From a bacterium (GTDB lineage: Bacteria > JAHJDO01): 22,140 bases of DNA. Where the stretch lies: contig JAUSPT010000086.1 of assembly GCA_030652805.1 (NCBI GenBank), positions 1-22,140 of the forward strand, given 5' to 3'. A program made the translations under genes and the position numbers. The notes beneath the pieces were generated by a model. That model saw nothing but the letters and a program-made list of their open reading frames with translations. It had not been told where the DNA came from and did not search any database. Positions 4,920-21,456 of this stretch are shown piece after piece (position 1 is the stretch's first letter; the number at the start of each line of letters is the position of its first letter).

Positions 4920-6026
4920 ATGAGTATTACTAAGCCATTACCTGTAAATATTTATTTTGTCTGGCAGTGGTGGGAAAAGTATTATCAAAGATTCCATGAA
5001 CGACCTAGTGCTATTAACATGAATTGGTTAGATGAAACATATAAAGGCCGTCAGCGTTTCTTATATGATGAATTCGGCCAATTTGGCATTGGCCAGGAAA
5101 ACCCTGTTTTAGATGGTAATTTTGTCTCGAAAGTTATGCCATTTCATACAATGATTATAGCGGTTGCGTTGGGAATGAAGGTAGAGCTTCAGAATGTCGG
5201 AGGGTATACTTGGAAGAGCATGTCAAAAAAACAATTAAAAAAGCTTAAACCTGTGAACATCGCCGATACAATTGCTGGCGAATTGATTCTAAGACAACGA
5301 CAGGAGCGAGTGGTCCGTTATGGTGTAGCAACCCAGATGGTAGATTTGGCAAGTGTAAGCAATAACGCTTTTATGCTTCGTGGGCAGGAGTTTTATTCTG
5401 ACCTTATGATCAATAAGGCTTTTGCTCATCATTATCTTGAGGTGATAACAGAAACTATGTGTATGGCATATAAGTTCATCACAGATATTTTTGGTCCTAT
5501 AGAAGGGTTTCCGCTAGGCAATTGTAATGTCACTATGATGTCACCAGAGCTTTACATAGAGATGATCCGACCGTATGACATACGGTGCGTTGAATATGCA
5601 AGTCAATTAACAAAAAAAGAGCCGTCATGTAATCTCCACCATTGTAATGTTAAGGCAGAACCTTTTGCAGAAGCTTATAGTAGGATTCCAGGATTACACT
5701 GTCTCCAAGGTTCCCATCTGTCTGATATTAATAAGATTCAGCAGATGATACCTGGTGTTTCTTTCTCTGCTATGCTCAATCCGCAGGATTTATTGTCTAA
5801 ACCAACTGGACAGATAGAGACTGAGCTGAATCGTTGTCTTGCAGCAGGGGCAGACGATCTGGCAATATGGGATATCGATCCGAATTATAATCTCAAAAGA
5901 ATGGGAGATCTGTTATATAGAATTGGAAAAATAGCAGTCAACAATGATCGCAAAGCTGAATTTACTATTATTCCTATTACATGGGAGGAATTAGACTGGG
6001 AATTCCCAATATATCGTAAAAGATAA
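4920..6026 (+). CDS. URO-D fold methyltransferase-like protein
   Basis: A 368-residue protein of the uroporphyrinogen decarboxylase/MtaA-MtbA superfamily, a TIM-barrel fold. In corrinoid methyltransfer it moves methyl groups between a corrinoid protein and a thiol or tetrahydrofolate. The signature half is C-terminal: MSPELYIEMIRPYDIRCVEYA, shown here in pieces as MSPELYIEMIRPYD and CVEYASQL. It is followed by LHHCNVKAEPFAEAY, where His-x-Cys-type residues occupy the zinc-ligand position of the family (commonly HxCG). GADDLAIWDIDPN comes near the end. The N-terminal half is divergent from typical MtaA. It begins 29 nt after the frameshifted homologue, so the two may have been a tandem pair. 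It is likely co-transcribed with the MttB-like gene downstream. True uroporphyrinogen decarboxylase is unlikely, given the context and the divergent N-terminus. Confidence 0.75.
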   Translation: MSITKPLPVNIYFVWQWWEKYYQRFHERPSAINMNWLDETYKGRQRFLYDEFGQFGIGQENPVLDGNFVSKVMPFHTMIIAVALGMKVELQNVGGYTWKSMSKKQLKKLKPVNIADTIAGELILRQRQERVVRYGVATQMVDLASVSNNAFMLRGQEFYSDLMINKAFAHHYLEVITETMCMAYKFITDIFGPIEGFPLGNCNVTMMSPELYIEMIRPYDIRCVEYASQLTKKEPSCNLHHCNVKAEPFAEAYSRIPGLHCLQGSHLSDINKIQQMIPGVSFSAMLNPQDLLSKPTGQIETELNRCLAAGADDLAIWDIDPNYNLKRMGDLLYRIGKIAVNNDRKAEFTIIPITWEELDWEFPIYRKR

Positions 6027-6036
6027 AAAAATCAAC

Positions 6037-6051
6037 GAGGAGAAAAGAATA
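6037..6051 (+). promoter_or_regulatory. Strong Shine-Dalgarno without a normal start codon
   Basis: GAGGAG at 6037-6042 is the best ribosome-binding site in this part of the cluster, yet the codon at the right distance (6051) is ATA. That frame runs about 27 codons and then stops. It is out of register with the MttB-like ATG at 6101, whose own upstream sequence (gaaagag) is a poor match. This may reflect an older start lost by mutation or a small indel. Confidence 0.35.
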
Positions 6052-6100
6052 TAAACAAGAGATACAGGGAATCAAATCGAATTTTTGAAAGAGTAGCAAA

Positions 6101-7555
6101 ATGGCATATAATTGGTTTACACAAAATCCATTAAAGGTATTTTCAGACGAATCAGTACAAAAGATTCATACCAGCGTTATATGTTTGCTTGAGAAAGTTG
6201 GAGTCTGCATTGATTCCGAAGAAGCGCTGATACTACTTAGGGAATACGGGATCCGCTGTGATTTAAAGAAGATGCGGGCATATCCAGATGAAAAGAGTAT
6301 CCAACGAGCGCTTAAAACTGTGCAAAAAGGTTATAAATTATATAGTCGAAAATTTAATGAACAACAGATGTTAAATATAGACTTAACTACAACTCATACC
6401 ATCAGCGGTGGAGCAGCATTAAAACTTTACTCTAGAGGAAAGTATACAGATGCAACCAAAAATGACCTGGTAGACATGATTGTTCTTCATGAAAAACTGG
6501 ATAATATTAATATGCTGATTAATGTGGTAGAACCAACAGATATGAAGGATGAAAATATTTATCCAAAGATTGCAGCAGAATTATTCTGTTATTCTTCAAA
6601 ACCATTACTTCTTCAGGTAAGTGGTGGAATAGACCTTAAAAAAATCATTCGCATGGCTTCCTTGCTTGTTGACGGAGAAGATAAATTGAAAAAACGACCA
6701 ATTTTTATGACAGGCATCAATTCTGAGCCGCCATTAAAGATAACTAAAGAAGGGGCAGAAGTATTAATATGTGCTGCTAAGGCAAGTATTCCTGTCTCAT
6801 TGGGCGCGTATCTTATGGCAGGCGCTACTGGACCGCTTGACGTGGTTGCGAGCATTATTCAAAGAACAGCGACTGTATTGACCGGGCTTGTATTAACCCA
6901 GGCTGCTCAGCCGGGAAGCATCTACGATTTTACCTGCCACAGCGGGTCTTGTGATCTTAAAACAGGGGATGTGATTACTATGTCTCCACAAGTCATGCAG
7001 ATTGTTGCAGGATCCATTCAGATAGGGAGGTATTACGGCCTGATAACTCATTCTTTGGCAGCTACTGAGGCTAATGCCCCTGATGCTCAGGCTTCAGGAG
7101 AACGTTTTTTCTCTCTAATTATATCAGTAATGGCAGGAGCTTCTGTTATTCATCATACAACCTCGTGTATGGCAGGTATGGAACTGGCTGATTTTGCTCA
7201 ATGTGTCATTGACAATGAGATAGCTGGATATGTTCTTGATTTTGCGAAAGGAATAAGCATGGATACTCTTGATGAGGCAGTTCGGGTTATAAAGGACGTT
7301 ATAGAAGATCCACAATACTCTGCTCTTTCCTTTCTTGGACATCCACATACAGTAAAGTACTGCCGCAAACAGACCTACAAACCAAAACTCTTTTCTATAG
7401 GTATGCTATCCAGATGGATGGCCGGAGAAAGGCAATCTCTCTATGAAAAGGCAGAAAAGAAGGTGGGAAAACTTCTTGCCGAAAGACAGGAATTTATTCC
7501 GCAGGATGTTAAACAGAAACTTTTTAAATTGGCGCTGGAAGAATCCAGTCATTGA
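6101..7555 (+). CDS. MttB-superfamily methylamine/betaine:corrinoid methyltransferase-like
   Basis: A 484-residue homologue of trimethylamine:corrinoid methyltransferase MttB, a TIM-barrel enzyme that demethylates a quaternary or tertiary amine onto a cobalamin protein. Length matches the family (about 480-495). Typical segments include SGGAALKLYSRGKYTDA in the N-terminal third, PLLLQVSGGIDLKKI, the Gly/Ala-rich SLGAYLMAGATGPLDVVA, and GERFFSLIISVMAGASVIHHT toward the C-terminus. The reading frame has no in-frame amber codon, so it belongs to the non-pyrrolysine branch, whose characterised members (for example MtgB on glycine betaine) use betaines or related N-methyl compounds. The substrate here is unknown. 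The stop overlaps the ribosome-binding site of the next URO-D gene, so the two are co-translated partners. The start is uncertain because of the stronger upstream Shine-Dalgarno. Confidence 0.85.
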   Translation: MAYNWFTQNPLKVFSDESVQKIHTSVICLLEKVGVCIDSEEALILLREYGIRCDLKKMRAYPDEKSIQRALKTVQKGYKLYSRKFNEQQMLNIDLTTTHTISGGAALKLYSRGKYTDATKNDLVDMIVLHEKLDNINMLINVVEPTDMKDENIYPKIAAELFCYSSKPLLLQVSGGIDLKKIIRMASLLVDGEDKLKKRPIFMTGINSEPPLKITKEGAEVLICAAKASIPVSLGAYLMAGATGPLDVVASIIQRTATVLTGLVLTQAAQPGSIYDFTCHSGSCDLKTGDVITMSPQVMQIVAGSIQIGRYYGLITHSLAATEANAPDAQASGERFFSLIISVMAGASVIHHTTSCMAGMELADFAQCVIDNEIAGYVLDFAKGISMDTLDEAVRVIKDVIEDPQYSALSFLGHPHTVKYCRKQTYKPKLFSIGMLSRWMAGERQSLYEKAEKKVGKLLAERQEFIPQDVKQKLFKLALEESSH

Positions 7556-7564
7556 GGAGCAAAA

Positions 7565-8692
7565 ATGACAGCAAAAGAGCGTATTAAGAAGGCATTTGCA
7601 AATAATGGCGAACCAGACCGTGTGCCGGTAGAACCGGGTCTTGATTTTGATACCTTGACTGACCTCTCCGGGCTCGATTACTGGGAATACAAAGAACAGG
7701 GTCACAACGAGTTCAGCAGTTTGATATCATGGTGCGACCGATTAGGTTTTGATCTCTACCACTATGCAGCTGAGATTCCCGAACCGAACCCTCCTGAGAA
7801 TGTTAAAGTGTCTACAAAAAGTTGGGAAGAGAAAGATATTCGCATTGCCGAGACAAGCGTTGTAACTTCTCTTGGACAAATATACGAATGTCGTCGCTAT
7901 CCCCGGAACAATCCCGAATACTCCAACAAAAAATTTATCAAGAATATACATGCTGATTGGCCTGTTTTTCGTGAGTATTTTGGCACTGGCTGGCGAGTTC
8001 ATCCTAGATATTTTGAAGAATATGCGAGTGTTGGAGATCGCGGGGTTGTCGGAGCTGTCGTTCACAGTCCAATTGACTGGTGGCAGGAATATCGTAATGG
8101 CGGAATTGAACAGGTAATTTATGATTTTTACGATACACCAAGAGAGATGGAAGAAATTATTGAGTATTACCAACACCAGAGCTGCGGATACCTTCAGGAG
8201 TTAGCGAAGCTGAATCCTAAGCCTGATTTTGTGATGATTCACGGCTCGAATTGTTCTGCGAGCGTGATATCACCGGATATCTTTAAAAAATACGCGCTTC
8301 CATATATTAAGGAAGCTGCAACTCTACTCAAAAATGTCGGGATATTGAGTCTATTCCATGTATGCGGCAAGTCCAGAGAATGGCTTGACCTTGTGGCTGA
8401 TACCGATTTAAACGTGATCGATGCCCTGGAGGTTCCTCCTGCAGGCAATGTTGATTTAGCAGAGGTAAAAAGACTTTATGGTGGGCGGCTTTGCCTAAAG
8501 GGAAATGTTTCGGCAATGATAATGGTCTTTGGCACCAGACAGCAGGTTCGCGATGAGGTCAAGCGATGTATAGATTCCGCCGCCTGTGGAGGAGGCTTTA
8601 TGCTTGGTGTTGGCGATAGCATTGGACCCAAAGCGAATATCGATAATATTGAGGAAATGGTCAAGACAGCTATTGAATATGGGAAACTCTAA
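7565..8692 (+). CDS. URO-D/MtaA-type methyltransferase
   Basis: An intact 375-residue member of the uroporphyrinogen decarboxylase-like methyltransferase family. The N-terminus MTAKERIKKAFANNGEPDRV-PVEPG is the family opening (ERI-A-F-PDRVP). FHVCGKSREWL provides the His-x-Cys zinc-binding motif near residue 262. DALEVPPAGNVDLAEVKRLYG and then LKGNVS followed by GGGFMLGVGDSIGP give the conserved C-terminal strands. In characterised pathways such proteins transfer methyl from a corrinoid protein to coenzyme M or tetrahydrofolate. It starts 9 nt after the MttB-like stop with a clean GAGGAG site, which argues for a functional pair: MttB-like demethylase plus URO-D second methyltransferase. The corrinoid carrier expected between them is not in the window. 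Confidence 0.85.
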   Translation: MTAKERIKKAFANNGEPDRVPVEPGLDFDTLTDLSGLDYWEYKEQGHNEFSSLISWCDRLGFDLYHYAAEIPEPNPPENVKVSTKSWEEKDIRIAETSVVTSLGQIYECRRYPRNNPEYSNKKFIKNIHADWPVFREYFGTGWRVHPRYFEEYASVGDRGVVGAVVHSPIDWWQEYRNGGIEQVIYDFYDTPREMEEIIEYYQHQSCGYLQELAKLNPKPDFVMIHGSNCSASVISPDIFKKYALPYIKEAATLLKNVGILSLFHVCGKSREWLDLVADTDLNVIDALEVPPAGNVDLAEVKRLYGGRLCLKGNVSAMIMVFGTRQQVRDEVKRCIDSAACGGGFMLGVGDSIGPKANIDNIEEMVKTAIEYGKL

Positions 8693-8775
8693 ACAAACTC
8701 AAAAACAGTTTAGGATAATTGCACTCTATAATATCCATGCGTAAAGCAGAAATTATTATAAAAAAAGGGGAAAAA

Positions 8776-8961
8776 ATGATAAAATTTTCTTTTATGAGTT
8801 TTTCATGTCCTGAACTTGATCTGGATGAAATGATGGCAGTTGCAAAAAGGTATGGTTATGACGATTTCCTGAGTGGTGAATGGATTAATTGGGAGCCTTA
8901 CGAAACACATCTGCCTCGTGAACTATCAACAATGAAACGCTACGAACAGGAAGCTTCATAA
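8776..8961 (+). pseudogene. Sugar phosphate isomerase/epimerase with internal deletion
   Basis: A 61-residue frame with an excellent site (AGGGG, ATG 8776) joins two ends of one protein. Residues 1-29 (KFSFMSFSCPELDLDEMM, then AVAKRYGYD) are the N-terminus of an AP-endonuclease-2/xylose isomerase-like TIM barrel. Residues 30-61 (SGEWINWEPYETHLPREL, then TMKRYEQE) match the C-terminal tail of the same family. About 200 residues of barrel between them are missing, and the join is in frame. The protein cannot fold as a barrel, so I call it a pseudogene left by one deletion. An ATG at 8719 in the same frame lacks a ribosome-binding site. Confidence 0.7.
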
Positions 8962-9816: not shown

Positions 9817-10071
9817 ATGAGAAATAATACGTCAAAACTGGCTATTAACGGTGGGGAACCTGTGCGAACAAGACCGTTGCCATCTGCTTATTTAGGAACA
9901 CAAGTCATGGGCAAAGAAGAACTTAAACTGCTAACCGAAGTTATTGAAACACGGCTGCCTTTTCGCGATTATGGGGATGGCACACCACACATGGTAAATG
10001 ATTTTGAGAGACTTGCTCGTGAGTATTTCGACGTGCCTTATGCAGGAGAAAAGAAATTTGAATTGCCATAA
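9817..10071 (+). pseudogene. N-terminal fragment of a DegT/DnrJ/EryC1 aminotransferase
   Basis: The first ~76 residues match the start of a PLP-dependent sugar aminotransferase: LAINGGEPVRTRPLP, then MGKEELKLLTEVIETR, then DFERLAREYFDVPYA. In full-length members the next residues lead into the substrate- and PLP-binding core with a Schiff-base Lys far downstream. Here the sequence switches to GEKKFELP and stops at 10071. All catalytic residues are absent, so it cannot work as an aminotransferase. It is the last gene of the accessory cluster and its break marks the boundary with the housekeeping genes. Confidence 0.8.
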
Positions 10072-11695: not shown

Positions 11696-12058
11696 TTATT
11701 TTTTTGCCAAATGCTTTTTTGAAACTTCTACCAGGCGCTCAAATGCTATAGGATTTGTTATCGCTAAATCAGCAAGAATCTTCCTATTCAATTCTACTTT
11801 TGCTTTTGTAAGACCATTTATGAAAGCACTGTAGGACAATTTATACGGCCTCACTGCTGCGTTTATTCGCACAATCCATAAGCTTCTAAAATCTCTTTTC
11901 TTTACTTTGCGATCCCTGTACGAATAAACAAGCCCTCTTTCTACAGTTTCTCTCGCAGTCCTGTAATTCTTGCCGCGTCTTCCCCAGTAGCCCTTTGCCA
12001 TTTTAAGAAATTTTTTGTGTCTTCTTTTGGAAGCAACAGCCCCCTTTACTCTACTCAT
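11696..12058 (-). CDS. rplT: 50S ribosomal protein L20
   Basis: Assembly-initiating large-subunit protein of 120 residues, the usual length. The N-terminus [20 protein letters not shown] is shown here as [12 protein letters not shown] and [14 protein letters not shown], followed by [23 protein letters not shown], all diagnostic. AGGAG lies before the ATG, and only 1 nt separates it from the rpmI stop. It is the last gene of the rpsO-infC-rpmI-rplT operon and converges on gmk. Confidence 0.97.
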
Positions 12059-12059
12059 A

Positions 12060-12254
12060 CTATACTCCTAAAAGCTTCCTTATTCTTTTGTGATCCCCTT
12101 TAACTAGAATGGCAGGACTTCGTAAATGCCTCTTTCTTTTTGTGGTTTTCTTGGTCAAGATATGACTGGTATATGCTTTTCTTCGTTTTATTTTCCCTTT
12201 TCCAGTCAGCTTAAATCTCTTAGCTGCTCCACGATGTGTCTTTAACTTTGGCAT
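12060..12254 (-). CDS. rpmI: 50S ribosomal protein L35
   Basis: A 64-residue, highly basic large-subunit protein. [20 protein letters not shown] is the invariant N-terminus, and [15 protein letters not shown] the usual C-terminus. GAGGA precedes the ATG. It sits between infC and rplT in the conserved infC-rpmI-rplT order. Confidence 0.97.
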
Positions 12255-12270
12255 ATAATCCTCATCACAC

Positions 12271-12801
12271 CTACTGCTTTTTTTCTGTACTCCCTTTTGG
12301 GCTTAATACCATAACCATAATTCTCTTACCAAGCGAAGAAATAGGCTGATCTATCTCTCCTTGCTCAGACACATCCCCGGTAAGCCTTTCGAGTATCCGT
12401 CTGCCGATCTCTTTATGAGACATTTCTCTGCCGCGGAACATAAGTGTTATTTTAACCTTGTTCCTGTCTGCAAGGAATTCCTTAACATGTCTTAACTTTA
12501 CCTGATAATCGTTTTCTTCTATATTCGGTTTAAATTTAATTTCTTTTAATTCTACGGTCTTCTGTTTTTTGCGGGCTTCCTTTCCCCGTTTTATTTGCTC
12601 ATACCTATACTTATCATAATCCATTACCCGGCAAACCGGGGGAGAAGACTCCGAGGAAACCTGAACCAGGTCAAGACCTTTTTCTTCTGCAATTCTTAAG
12701 GCATCTTCAATAGCCAAAATTCCGAGCTGTTCCTTATCCAACCCAACCAATCTTACTTGTTTTGCCCGTATCCCCCGATTTACTTCAGCAAACTTCTTTA
12801 T
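12271..12801 (-). CDS. infC: Translation initiation factor IF-3, probable AUA start
   Basis: IF-3 binds the 30S subunit and rejects non-canonical start codons. The assigned protein is 176 residues, normal for the family, with the N-terminal domain to about residue 85 and the C-terminal domain ([20 protein letters not shown], then [13 protein letters not shown]) after it. The start matters. The conserved N-terminus [14 protein letters not shown] extends well upstream of the first ATG/GTG/TTG candidate (TTG 12750). In that frame the first codon is ATA 12801, preceded immediately by an in-frame TAA. AGGAG sits 7 nt before the ATA. So AUA is the only start that yields a complete IF-3. infC is known for rare starts (AUU in E. 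coli), which allow IF-3 to repress its own translation. It follows rpsO by 26 nt. Confidence 0.93.
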
Positions 12802-12827
12802 TTACTAACTCCTTTTTCTCTGTTATA

Positions 12828-13097
12828 TTATTTACGAAGCTTCAATTTATCAATAACTGTTAAGTATCTTTTGGCATCTTTCTTTTTAAGATAATCCAGC
12901 AAGCGTCTCCTGTTTCCTACAAGTTTCAACAACCCACGCCTTGAATTATGGTCTTTTTTAAAACTCGAAAAATGCCTTGTTAAATTATTAATTCTCCCTG
13001 TTATCAAAGCAATCTGAACCTCTGGAGATCCGGTATCGCCTTCATGTGCCATAAACTTTACTATGACTTCTTTTTTCTCATCCGTGGATATTGCCAC
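12828..13097 (-). CDS. rpsO: 30S ribosomal protein S15
   Basis: Small-subunit protein S15. Conserved landmarks are [20 protein letters not shown] and [19 protein letters not shown] place the start at GTG 13097, giving 89 residues, exactly the usual length. AAAGGA lies about 6 nt upstream of it, whereas the TTG two codons earlier directly touches that site and could not use it. It has its own promoter (13135-13163) and heads the infC-rpmI-rplT operon. Confidence 0.95.
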
Positions 13098-13134
13098 TTT
13101 CAATCCTTTCTATAGACTTGCATTCATTCGCTAG

Positions 13135-18311: not shown

Positions 18312-19406
18312 TTATTTTTCACCAGAAAATTTTTTTTGTGCTGTATTTAATCGTTCAATTACTTTTACTTTACTTGAGATGCCTTCACGAATATTTTCTT
18401 CTAAAAATGGGGTGCTTTGTCTTAATTTATTATAATATCCTTTAACAGTCTTTTTGTTCTGCTCTTTTAAAATTTTAATATTTTTAGCAACACCAAACAT
18501 TAATGCTTCCATAACTACATTACTAATCTTTGGGAAAGATTCTTTGTTAGAAATTTTATAATAAATTAATTCTATAGTAGCGTCAAAAATTTCTTTCTTT
18601 TTTTCTATTTCTTGTTTTGCTAAATACCTATTTTCAAACATATAGTCATTCAAAAAAGAAGCTAGTCTTCCTTTATAATTATTGTGATTATCTATAAATG
18701 AAAAGAATCTTAATATTAATTCCACTTTTTTAAAACGATCTCTTTTATTATTTTTTGCACCAAAAAGTTCTTTCCATTTTTGGTTTTTATCACATTCTTT
18801 CAAAAAGTCATTAAGCGAACCACTATATATTGCATTTCTTATTTCTTGGTTACTAAGCTTAAGTCCTCCTGCATTCAACCGATGGAAAATCATGAATATA
18901 TATTCCTCATGATCTTTTTTAGTATAATCACATCTCAAGATAGTTATTGGAAGAGTAAAATTTTCTACAAGACTATATAATTCAGGGTACTTCGTTTTAA
19001 TTTCAGAAGCTTTTTTCCCGGCAATATTTTGATTTATATCCGATATTTTAGATAATATCCATTCATCTTCACTAAGAAAACGAATAATAGTATACATGCG
19101 CTGAAGCCCATCAATGATTTTCCATTTTTGGATTTTGTTGTCTAAACTAAAACACATACTCGGTATTGGTAATTGTTTCATAAGAGAATCAATAAAACGA
19201 GTTTGATCTGATTCTGTCCAAACTATATTCCTTTGATAATCTGGTTGGATCTCTAATCTTCCGCTCTTATGCATTCTATATAAATCTGCACATGAACGAA
19301 GTTCATTAAAGGCAAAAATATCTTCCGGAGGTATTTTTTCAGAATCAACTTGATATAACAAATCATCTTCTATTTTTTCTAATTTTTCCAATTGTTTACC
19401 CCCCAT
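18312..19406 (-). CDS. DUF262-family (GmrSD-N/ParB-like) protein
   Basis: A 364-residue protein with the DUF262 fold found in GmrS/GmrD-type modification-dependent restriction and other anti-phage proteins. Visible motifs are IQPDYQRNIVW (residues 53-63), KIIDGLQRMYTI (96-107, a variant of the usual DGQQR nucleotide-binding signature), FHRLNAGG (174-181) and LSNQEIRNAIY (185-194). The C-terminal third is helical and no DUF1524 HNH nuclease motif can be seen, so any nuclease activity would have to come from elsewhere. The HEPN gene is translationally coupled downstream. No clear ribosome-binding site precedes the ATG. It follows the 100-residue gene by 26 nt in the same cassette. Confidence 0.85.
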   Translation of the reverse strand: MGGKQLEKLEKIEDDLLYQVDSEKIPPEDIFAFNELRSCADLYRMHKSGRLEIQPDYQRNIVWTESDQTRFIDSLMKQLPIPSMCFSLDNKIQKWKIIDGLQRMYTIIRFLSEDEWILSKISDINQNIAGKKASEIKTKYPELYSLVENFTLPITILRCDYTKKDHEEYIFMIFHRLNAGGLKLSNQEIRNAIYSGSLNDFLKECDKNQKWKELFGAKNNKRDRFKKVELILRFFSFIDNHNNYKGRLASFLNDYMFENRYLAKQEIEKKKEIFDATIELIYYKISNKESFPKISNVVMEALMFGVAKNIKILKEQNKKTVKGYYNKLRQSTPFLEENIREGISSKVKVIERLNTAQKKFSGEK

Positions 19407-19432
19407 ATAATTTTATTTAATACTAAATTTAA

Positions 19433-19735
19433 TTAACAAAAATCAATCGCGTCTTCTTCCTCGTCAGTTAATCCGCATTTTTTAAGAGCATCTGTATAAC
19501 ATAAAAGCGCGCTTCTTTCTGGATGATAATCTTCTGGATGATAATTGACAATGCTCTCGCCCAAAGAATCAACTAATCTCTCTAAATCTTTTTTAGGCAT
19601 TTTTTCAATTTTTACGCTGGGACAATATTCTTCAATCGCTTCCATAATACTGCATAACGCTTCTTCTCTATCAAGCTGCAAAACCAACTTATTAGGATCA
19701 ATTCCTTTTCGTTTCAATAATTCTTTAGCATTCAT
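19433..19735 (-). CDS. Small acidic protein of unknown function
   Basis: I do not recognise this 100-residue, mostly helical protein. It is acidic at the C-terminus (LTDEEEDAIDFC) and has four Cys. A 15-bp tandem duplication in the gene (copies at 19517-19530 and 19532-19545) repeats the YHPED/YHPER pentapeptide. AAAGG lies about 10 nt before the ATG. It is 13 nt from the endonuclease gene and 26 nt from DUF262, so it belongs to the cassette. A role as specificity, immunity or antitoxin factor is possible but unsupported. Confidence 0.65.
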   Translation of the reverse strand: MNAKELLKRKGIDPNKLVLQLDREEALCSIMEAIEEYCPSVKIEKMPKKDLERLVDSLGESIVNYHPEDYHPERSALLCYTDALKKCGLTDEEEDAIDFC

Positions 19736-19748
19736 ATTTTGATGCCTT

Positions 19749-20273
19749 TTATTCAGGGACAGCTAGCCCTATTTTTTGCAACGGCAAATAGTTGAAATAA
19801 TAGGAACAGCCGTTTATTGAAATAATATAATCCAGAACATCTTTATATTCAGTCTTTTTAAACCAATCATTTAAAATATAGATATACTGCACCTCAACAT
19901 TTAATTGCGATAAAAGTTTTCTGTATTGTTTGATTTTAAAATCACATGTCTGCAATTTCTCATCCGTAGAACCAGCGATTTCTTGAAACTTTATCTCAAG
20001 AATAAAGAAAGTATTGTTGATTATAACAAATATTGCATCATCTGGTAAAAGTTTTCTAGAGATAAATTTTCTGTAATCTATCTTATTTTCTTTTAAATAG
20101 TTATATAATCCATGCTTTTTAAAAGCCAAAGCTACCTCTTCTCCGTTATAAAAAATTCTATTTTCTTTAACGCTATAATTCTGTTGAGTTTTTATAAAAG
20201 TTAGAAAATCAACTTTACCCTCAAAGTAAAGTCCTGTTTTTGTATTGGCTCCGCCTATTCCGCCTTTTTTCAT
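19749..20273 (-). CDS. PD-(D/E)XK restriction endonuclease
   Basis: A 174-residue probable type II endonuclease. The catalytic core reads LLPDDAIF (residues 75-82), then ILEIKFQ (91-97), giving PD-x14-E-x-K, the classical spacing. E18 in YFEGK may be the helix acidic residue. It opens with GGIGGANTKTGLYFE and contains DEKLQTCDFKIKQYRKLL after the core, conserved-looking segments in this group of endonucleases. It begins 4 nt after the methyltransferase stop, an ordinary M-then-R order that lets protection precede cutting. The recognition site cannot be read from the sequence. Confidence 0.8.
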   Translation of the reverse strand: MKKGGIGGANTKTGLYFEGKVDFLTFIKTQQNYSVKENRIFYNGEEVALAFKKHGLYNYLKENKIDYRKFISRKLLPDDAIFVIINNTFFILEIKFQEIAGSTDEKLQTCDFKIKQYRKLLSQLNVEVQYIYILNDWFKKTEYKDVLDYIISINGCSYYFNYLPLQKIGLAVPE

Positions 20274-20277
20274 AAAA

Positions 20278-21090
20278 TTATTTTCCCCTAAGTTTATTTT
20301 TTAAATTTTTATCTAATTCTTCAAATCTTTTAATTGATAAATCAAGATAGCTCTTTTCTGTATCAATACCAATAAAATTTCTTCCATAAAGATAAGCGGC
20401 CAATCCTGTTGTTGAGCTTCCTGTAAAAGGATCGAGAATTGTATCGCCTTTATTCGTGCTTGCTAAGACGATTCTTTTAAGTAAGTCGAAAGATTTCTGC
20501 GTTGGATGCTTGCCGAATTTTTTTTCAATAGATTTGGGCGTGTTGATTGACCAAACTGATCTCATTTGCAATCCTGGCTTTTTTAGCTGATCTTCAGGCC
20601 AATCTCCGTCTTTCATCAACTTATAATTAAAAGTGTGTTTTGCTTTTTTGTCTTTTCTTGCCCAAATTAGAGTTTCGTGACTGGCAGTAAAAAAGCGGCA
20701 GCTTAAATTAGGGGAAGCGTTCGGCTTAAACCATGCAACATCATTCAAAATATGGTAACCGGCCATTTGTAAAGCGAAACCGCATTGATAGATTGAGTGA
20801 TAGGTTCCACTAATCCAAATTGTTCCGTTTGGTCTTAAAATTTTTTGACATGCTTTTATCCATTCAACATGAAAATCAAAGTTCTTTTTCAAGCCATTGC
20901 TTAAATCCCAATCACCCTTTTTAACACTAACCATTTTGCCATTCTGGCAAGTAAAAGTACCGCTGGAGAGAAAATAGGGAGGATCGGCGAAAATCATATC
21001 AACTGGATTTTCCGGAACTTCTTTTAAAAATTTCAGAGAATCAGCTTGATAAAGCTTAAATCTTGGTTTTTCGTAGTATGGTTTAATCAT
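20278..21090 (-). CDS. Beta-class DNA N6-adenine/N4-cytosine methyltransferase
   Basis: A 270-residue S-adenosylmethionine-dependent DNA methyltransferase that would protect sites from the adjacent endonuclease. Motif IV, MIFADPPYFLS, is at residues 32-42, and motif I, LDPFTGSSTTG, at 219-229, the circularly ordered beta class. GTIWISGTYHSIYQCG, KPNASPNLSCRFFTASHET and GKHPTQKSFDLL lie between, resembling M2.DpnII-type enzymes. DPPY points to adenine methylation, although N4-cytosine enzymes cannot be excluded. The start is ATG 21090: an upstream in-frame start at 21132 would lie inside the tmRNA gene. Its GGA ribosome-binding site touches the tmRNA 3' CCA. Confidence 0.92.
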   Translation of the reverse strand: MIKPYYEKPRFKLYQADSLKFLKEVPENPVDMIFADPPYFLSSGTFTCQNGKMVSVKKGDWDLSNGLKKNFDFHVEWIKACQKILRPNGTIWISGTYHSIYQCGFALQMAGYHILNDVAWFKPNASPNLSCRFFTASHETLIWARKDKKAKHTFNYKLMKDGDWPEDQLKKPGLQMRSVWSINTPKSIEKKFGKHPTQKSFDLLKRIVLASTNKGDTILDPFTGSSTTGLAAYLYGRNFIGIDTEKSYLDLSIKRFEELDKNLKNKLRGK

Positions 21091-21098
21091 TATTTTCC

Positions 21099-21456
21099 TG
21101 GTGGAGGTGGCGGGAGTCGAACCCGCATCCAAAAGTACAGTTACAGCAGCATCTACATGTTTATTCCGCTATTTAGCTCTCGTCTCTTATAACCTCCAGC
21201 GAACAGGATGTTACAGAAACTAGTTTGATAAAATCTCAACAGACCGCCTCAAACAAAACAATCTGTCCAGCCTGTTAATCGGCGCCTATTCTCACTCTAC
21301 AGGCAAGAACAAGATAGACGTAACTGCTATTTAAGCAGCTAAAGCCAACTGTTCGTCGGCAATTAAGTTGTATTGCCAGGTTTTTTTCGAGGCCACCCAG
21401 CACCCTCGACATGCAACTTCCGCACCTTCTACTCCTGTCGAAGCCGTATCACCCCC
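21099..21456 (-). ncRNA. ssrA: Transfer-messenger RNA (one-piece)
   Basis: Rescues stalled ribosomes with SmpB. The 5' end GGGGGUGAUACGGCUUCGAC pairs over 7 bp with the 3' end. The 3' T-arm (GCGGGTTCGACTCCCGC) is followed by the acceptor strand and an encoded CCA ending at 21099. The tag frame at 21360-21331 reads GCC GAC GAA CAG TTG GCT TTA GCT GCT TAA, giving the tag ADEQLALAA (with the charged Ala first), whose LALAA end is a normal proteolysis signal. The gene is 358 nt, in one piece. It lies 23 nt downstream of smpB. The DNA methyltransferase begins 8 nt after its 3' end. Confidence 0.97.
21331..21360 (-). other. tmRNA proteolysis-tag reading frame
   Basis: Nine sense codons and UAA within ssrA encode ADEQLALAA. 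It is one codon shorter than the E. coli tag and has the usual hydrophobic ALAA terminus. Confidence 0.85.

Follow-up and report, generated by a model that had tools for sequence, protein, structure and literature searches.

We propose that infC, the gene for initiation factor IF-3, is very probably translated from an AUA codon in the 22,140-nt stretch of bacterial DNA analysed here (the window), and that this start lets IF-3 proofread its own initiation in a homeostatic loop of the kind found in E. coli. The predicted position of the start at ATA is based on conservation and on a lack of alternative starts, while discrimination by IF-3 and the ensuing feedback most likely operate here by analogy with other species. 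This infC is an ordinary member of a class already known, that of infC genes starting at AUU, AUC or AUA (AUH). With it, a phylum known only from metagenomes would join the lineages in which the initiation codon of infC is one that its product rejects, and this added lineage speaks for the feedback being both ancient and general.

The gene order on the minus strand is rpsO, infC, rpmI, rplT, with the following features:

12828..13097, minus strand: rpsO (S15), upstream neighbour of infC
12809..12815, minus strand: putative infC Shine–Dalgarno sequence AAAGGAG, 7 nt before AUA; supported by AAGGAG in five of five species and by the 16S 3' end
12802..12807, minus strand: in-frame stops TAG TAA directly 5' of AUA; TAG in five of five species, TAA replaced by CAA in one
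12799..12801, minus strand: predicted infC AUA initiation codon, the sole start candidate between the invariant in-frame TAG and IF3_N (five of five species)
12785..12808, minus strand: predicted small hairpin with AUA at the loop edge, suggestive only
12748..12750, minus strand: TTG, infC codon 18, the first usual start; TTA in three of five species
12274..12801, minus strand: infC CDS, 176 codons from the ATA start (translation, Pfam, TIGR00168)
12273-12271, minus strand: infC stop codon TAG (translation)
12060..12254, minus strand: rpmI (L35), downstream neighbour of infC
11696..12058, minus strand: rplT (L20), downstream neighbour of infC

The start region reads GAGAAAAAGGAGTTAGTAAATAAAGAAGTTTGCTGAAGTAAATCGG from 5' to 3', in the frame ...AGG AGT TAG TAA ATA AAG AAG TTT..., and the gene begins in frame as ...AAAAAGGAGTTAG TAA ATA AAG AAG TTT GCT GAA GTA AAT CGG... 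The original prediction of a TAA codon before ATA and of a well-spaced AGGAG was borne out, as TAG and TAA stand in frame directly 5' of ATA and the AGGAG core of the Shine–Dalgarno sequence (12813-12809, minus strand) leaves a 7-nt gap to ATA at 12801-12799. A 16S rRNA 3' end, GGATCACCTCCT, was found in the source genome and the infC Shine–Dalgarno sequence is thus able to pair. In the translation of the window, ATG, GTG and TTG are absent from the infC frame between ATA and codon 18. The gene had initially been given a span of 12271-12827 with no strand named; the lower end stands and the upper end does not, as coding begins at 12801 and is preceded by a 26-nt leader (12802-12827). Because the rpsO stop lies 26 nt 5' of the AUA, coupling between rpsO and infC is possible. 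Searches with Rfam detected no leader RNA around infC at gathering scores, the only Rfam match being tmRNA. The rpsO gene itself was listed from a TTG (13103), but initiation at the GTG of 13097 yields the N-terminus typical of S15, (V/M)AISTDEKK, and this GTG is better spaced from an AAAGG (13095-13103 of the window, minus strand).

Pairing of the Shine–Dalgarno sequence with ATA was not used as evidence, since the AAGGAG-N5-9-ATA pattern is not rare and is not significant alone (3 occurrences in the window versus 1.4 expected). The argument for the ATA start is instead built on the reading frame, the position of the domain and conservation. We also scanned 185 long ORFs from about 220 kb of the source genome and detected four AUH codons 5' of the first usual start with a Shine–Dalgarno match of at least 6. 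In three of these an ATG served by the same Shine–Dalgarno sequence follows within one or two codons, and the fourth is that of infC, which is the only ORF of the 185 with a strongly Shine–Dalgarno-linked AUH that is not simply beside an ATG.

Profile searches identified the full product as IF-3, with scores above the curated cut-offs for Pfam IF3_N (103.2 bits, profile positions 1-70), Pfam IF3_C (108 bits) and the equivalog TIGR00168 (216.3 bits). Residue 5 of the product falls on position 5 of TIGR00168, which locates the ATA where known IF-3s begin. Alignments with solved IF-3 structures run from residue 6 or 7 in a nearly identical register.

In E. coli, IF-3 allows initiation at AUG, GUG and UUG and discriminates against all other codons, and the AUU start of infC makes the factor repress its own translation, a feedback that depends on AUU. 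AUA shares the third-base mismatch of AUU, and the simplest reading of the window is the same loop. The AAAGGAG sequence would place initiator tRNA on AUA, the third base of which mismatches the CAU anticodon, and IF-3 bound to the 30S subunit would reject this codon as it does other non-AUG starts. Initiation on infC mRNA would then be poor when IF-3 is plentiful, and translation would rise when IF-3 is scarce. Both genes have an AUH start with a Shine–Dalgarno sequence and are followed by rpmI-rplT, whereas the start is AUU in E. coli and AUA here, the upstream gene is thrS there and rpsO here, and the feedback is proven there and argued from analogy here.

Other infC genes have comparable starts. 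An AUA start has been mapped by ribosome profiling (Ribo-Ret) in S. aureus (PMC13009471), where, as in the window, the AUA is directed by a strong Shine–Dalgarno sequence; S. aureus belongs, however, to a distant phylum and an extended Shine–Dalgarno sequence is stressed there (PMC13009471), in comparison with AAAGGAG here. Streptomyces infC also has an AUH start, ATC rather than ATA, for which an IF-3 autoregulation loop serving IF-3 homeostasis has been described (PMC5472188), and Listeria infC starts at ATT (PMC13068326). The original prediction of AUA as a rarer codon than the AUU of E. coli thus holds for the identity of the start and fails for its status as an exotic departure, given its occurrence in several lineages including S. 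aureus (PMC13009471).

We surveyed infC starts across bacteria by taking the best Shine–Dalgarno-linked start upstream of the domain, a rule that correctly returned ATT for E. coli. The rule is an approximate one and individual calls are in some cases questionable; as called, the starts were ATT 13, ATA 4, ATC 3, CTG 2, TTG 2 and none 6 in the WOR-3 phylum sample (30), ATT 10, ATC 9, ATA 2, CTG 1 and none 7 in the Acidobacteria sample (29), and ATT 25, ATA 14, ATC 13 and none 25 among the remaining 77 matches. Shine–Dalgarno-linked AUU, AUC and AUA starts dominate infC in every group surveyed, with ATA called in Dialister, in a Poribacteria MAG and in several Acidobacteria, among others. As a control, rplT of the same loci had ATG in 22 of 22 Shine–Dalgarno-linked cases and AUH in none. 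A 2020 preprint on bacterial genes that prefer non-AUG starts, cited in PMC9845219, probably covers infC. At locus L020 and related Acidobacteria loci, the infC Shine–Dalgarno sequence lies within a partial palindrome, GACACCTGGAGGTGTC, directly 5' of ATA, which could hide it.

The AUA may alternatively have no regulatory role and act merely as a low-efficiency start that fixes IF-3 at a low constant level. This would fit the output of S. aureus reporters, in which AUH starts gave ~10% of AUG output in poor medium (PMC13009471). The wide recurrence of AUH starts in infC and not in rplT instead fits a gene-specific tie to IF-3. As the feedback on E. coli infC is moreover established to depend on AUU, we regard a purely inefficient start as improbable.

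Translation from the TTG at codon 18 (12750), with the upstream similarity left untranslated, has even less to recommend it, despite being the start that automatic callers would choose as a usual start codon. The IF-3 domain requires residues upstream of this TTG: the 17 residues concerned contain the first 12 positions of IF3_N, and a TTG-started product loses positions 1-12 and drops to 82.5 bits. The claim that the IF-3 N-terminus reaches an ATA upstream of all usual starts is therefore upheld, as IF3_N is complete from ATA. The TTG also lacks a Shine–Dalgarno match of 5 bases or more, the best usual start being another TTG 11 codons downstream.

Comparison with relatives was made across five species, each represented by one genome; these independent MAGs all belong to one genus and constitute the sample for the whole phylum, as searches at family, order, class and phylum level returned the same five genomes only. 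The AAGGAG, the in-frame TAG and the ATA are retained in all five, the species of the window included, so that the conserved ATA for which the original prediction advised looking is present throughout. An ATG at the position of the downstream TTG, which would have spoken against an AUA start, occurs in none: codon 18 is TTG in two species (the window's among them) and TTA in three. The alternative TTG start is consequently nonexistent in three of the five species, where the first usual infC start comes only at codon 29 to 36. We rejected the codon 18 start on the basis of TTA in the relatives and loss of part of the domain, and consider it very improbable. The nine codons from ATA to CGG are unchanged at every base in all five species and thus carry no synonymous substitutions to mark them independently as coding. 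The first eight codons of rpsO are likewise invariant, in the four species compared.

The source of the window is a MAG, and an ATG could in principle have become ATA through a sequencing or assembly error, but the same ATA in five separately assembled species with 85-93% nucleotide identity excludes this explanation. A reassignment of AUA to Met, making the infC start ordinary, is hardly credible: no support for it was found; TilS, the maker of the AUA-reading Ile tRNA and lost in AUA-to-Met lineages, was detected (194.4 bits versus a cut-off of 93.6), indicating that AUA is Ile in elongation; and codon 11 of infC is an ATA that specifies the conserved Ile in the IRA motif of IF-3.

For genome annotation, an AUA start implies that start callers limited to ATG, GTG and TTG would remove 17 to about 35 residues of IF-3 in this lineage and that the start needs correction. 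The truncation of 17 residues expected at the outset applies to the window (TTG 12750), whereas the three relatives with TTA would lose about 28 residues or more.

A nine-pair hairpin, UUAGUAAAU-AAAGAA-GUUUGCUGA, is predicted at the start; in it, AUA would contribute its first two bases to the stem and its last to the loop. All five species are able to form this hairpin, and it is part of the lowest-energy fold in four and not in one; of the two changes within it, a U to C in G004 keeps its pair, while in G001 a U to C disrupts the outermost one. The z-score was -3.8 for a 26-nt segment selected once the fold was known and only -1.5 on 80 nt, and 6 of 143 Shine–Dalgarno-linked start-like sites of the source genome fold equally well. 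Because of these controls, the after-the-fact z-score and the invariance of the rpsO codons, the hairpin is a lead and not a finding. It is conceivable, though unlikely, that by holding AUA at the loop edge just after the Shine–Dalgarno sequence it reinforces IF-3 autocontrol in this phylum with a further, structural brake; such a brake would explain the invariance of the first nine infC codons.

Elsewhere in the window, a tmRNA gene (21099-21456, tag ADEQLALAA) lies (within 18312-21456, minus strand) next to an N6/N4 DNA methylase (20278-21132), a 174-aa protein without a Pfam match (19749-20273) and a GmrSD_N/DUF262 protein (18312-19406), the three of which are possibly a restriction or defence island. 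Two short plus-strand ORFs without Pfam matches resemble, by eye, N-terminal fragments of a TIM-barrel epimerase-like protein (8719-8961) and a DegT aminotransferase-like protein (9817-10071), and may be broken genes. At 4920-8692 (plus strand), two URO-D-type proteins flank an MttB-type methyltransferase, which suggests corrinoid-dependent methyl transfer.
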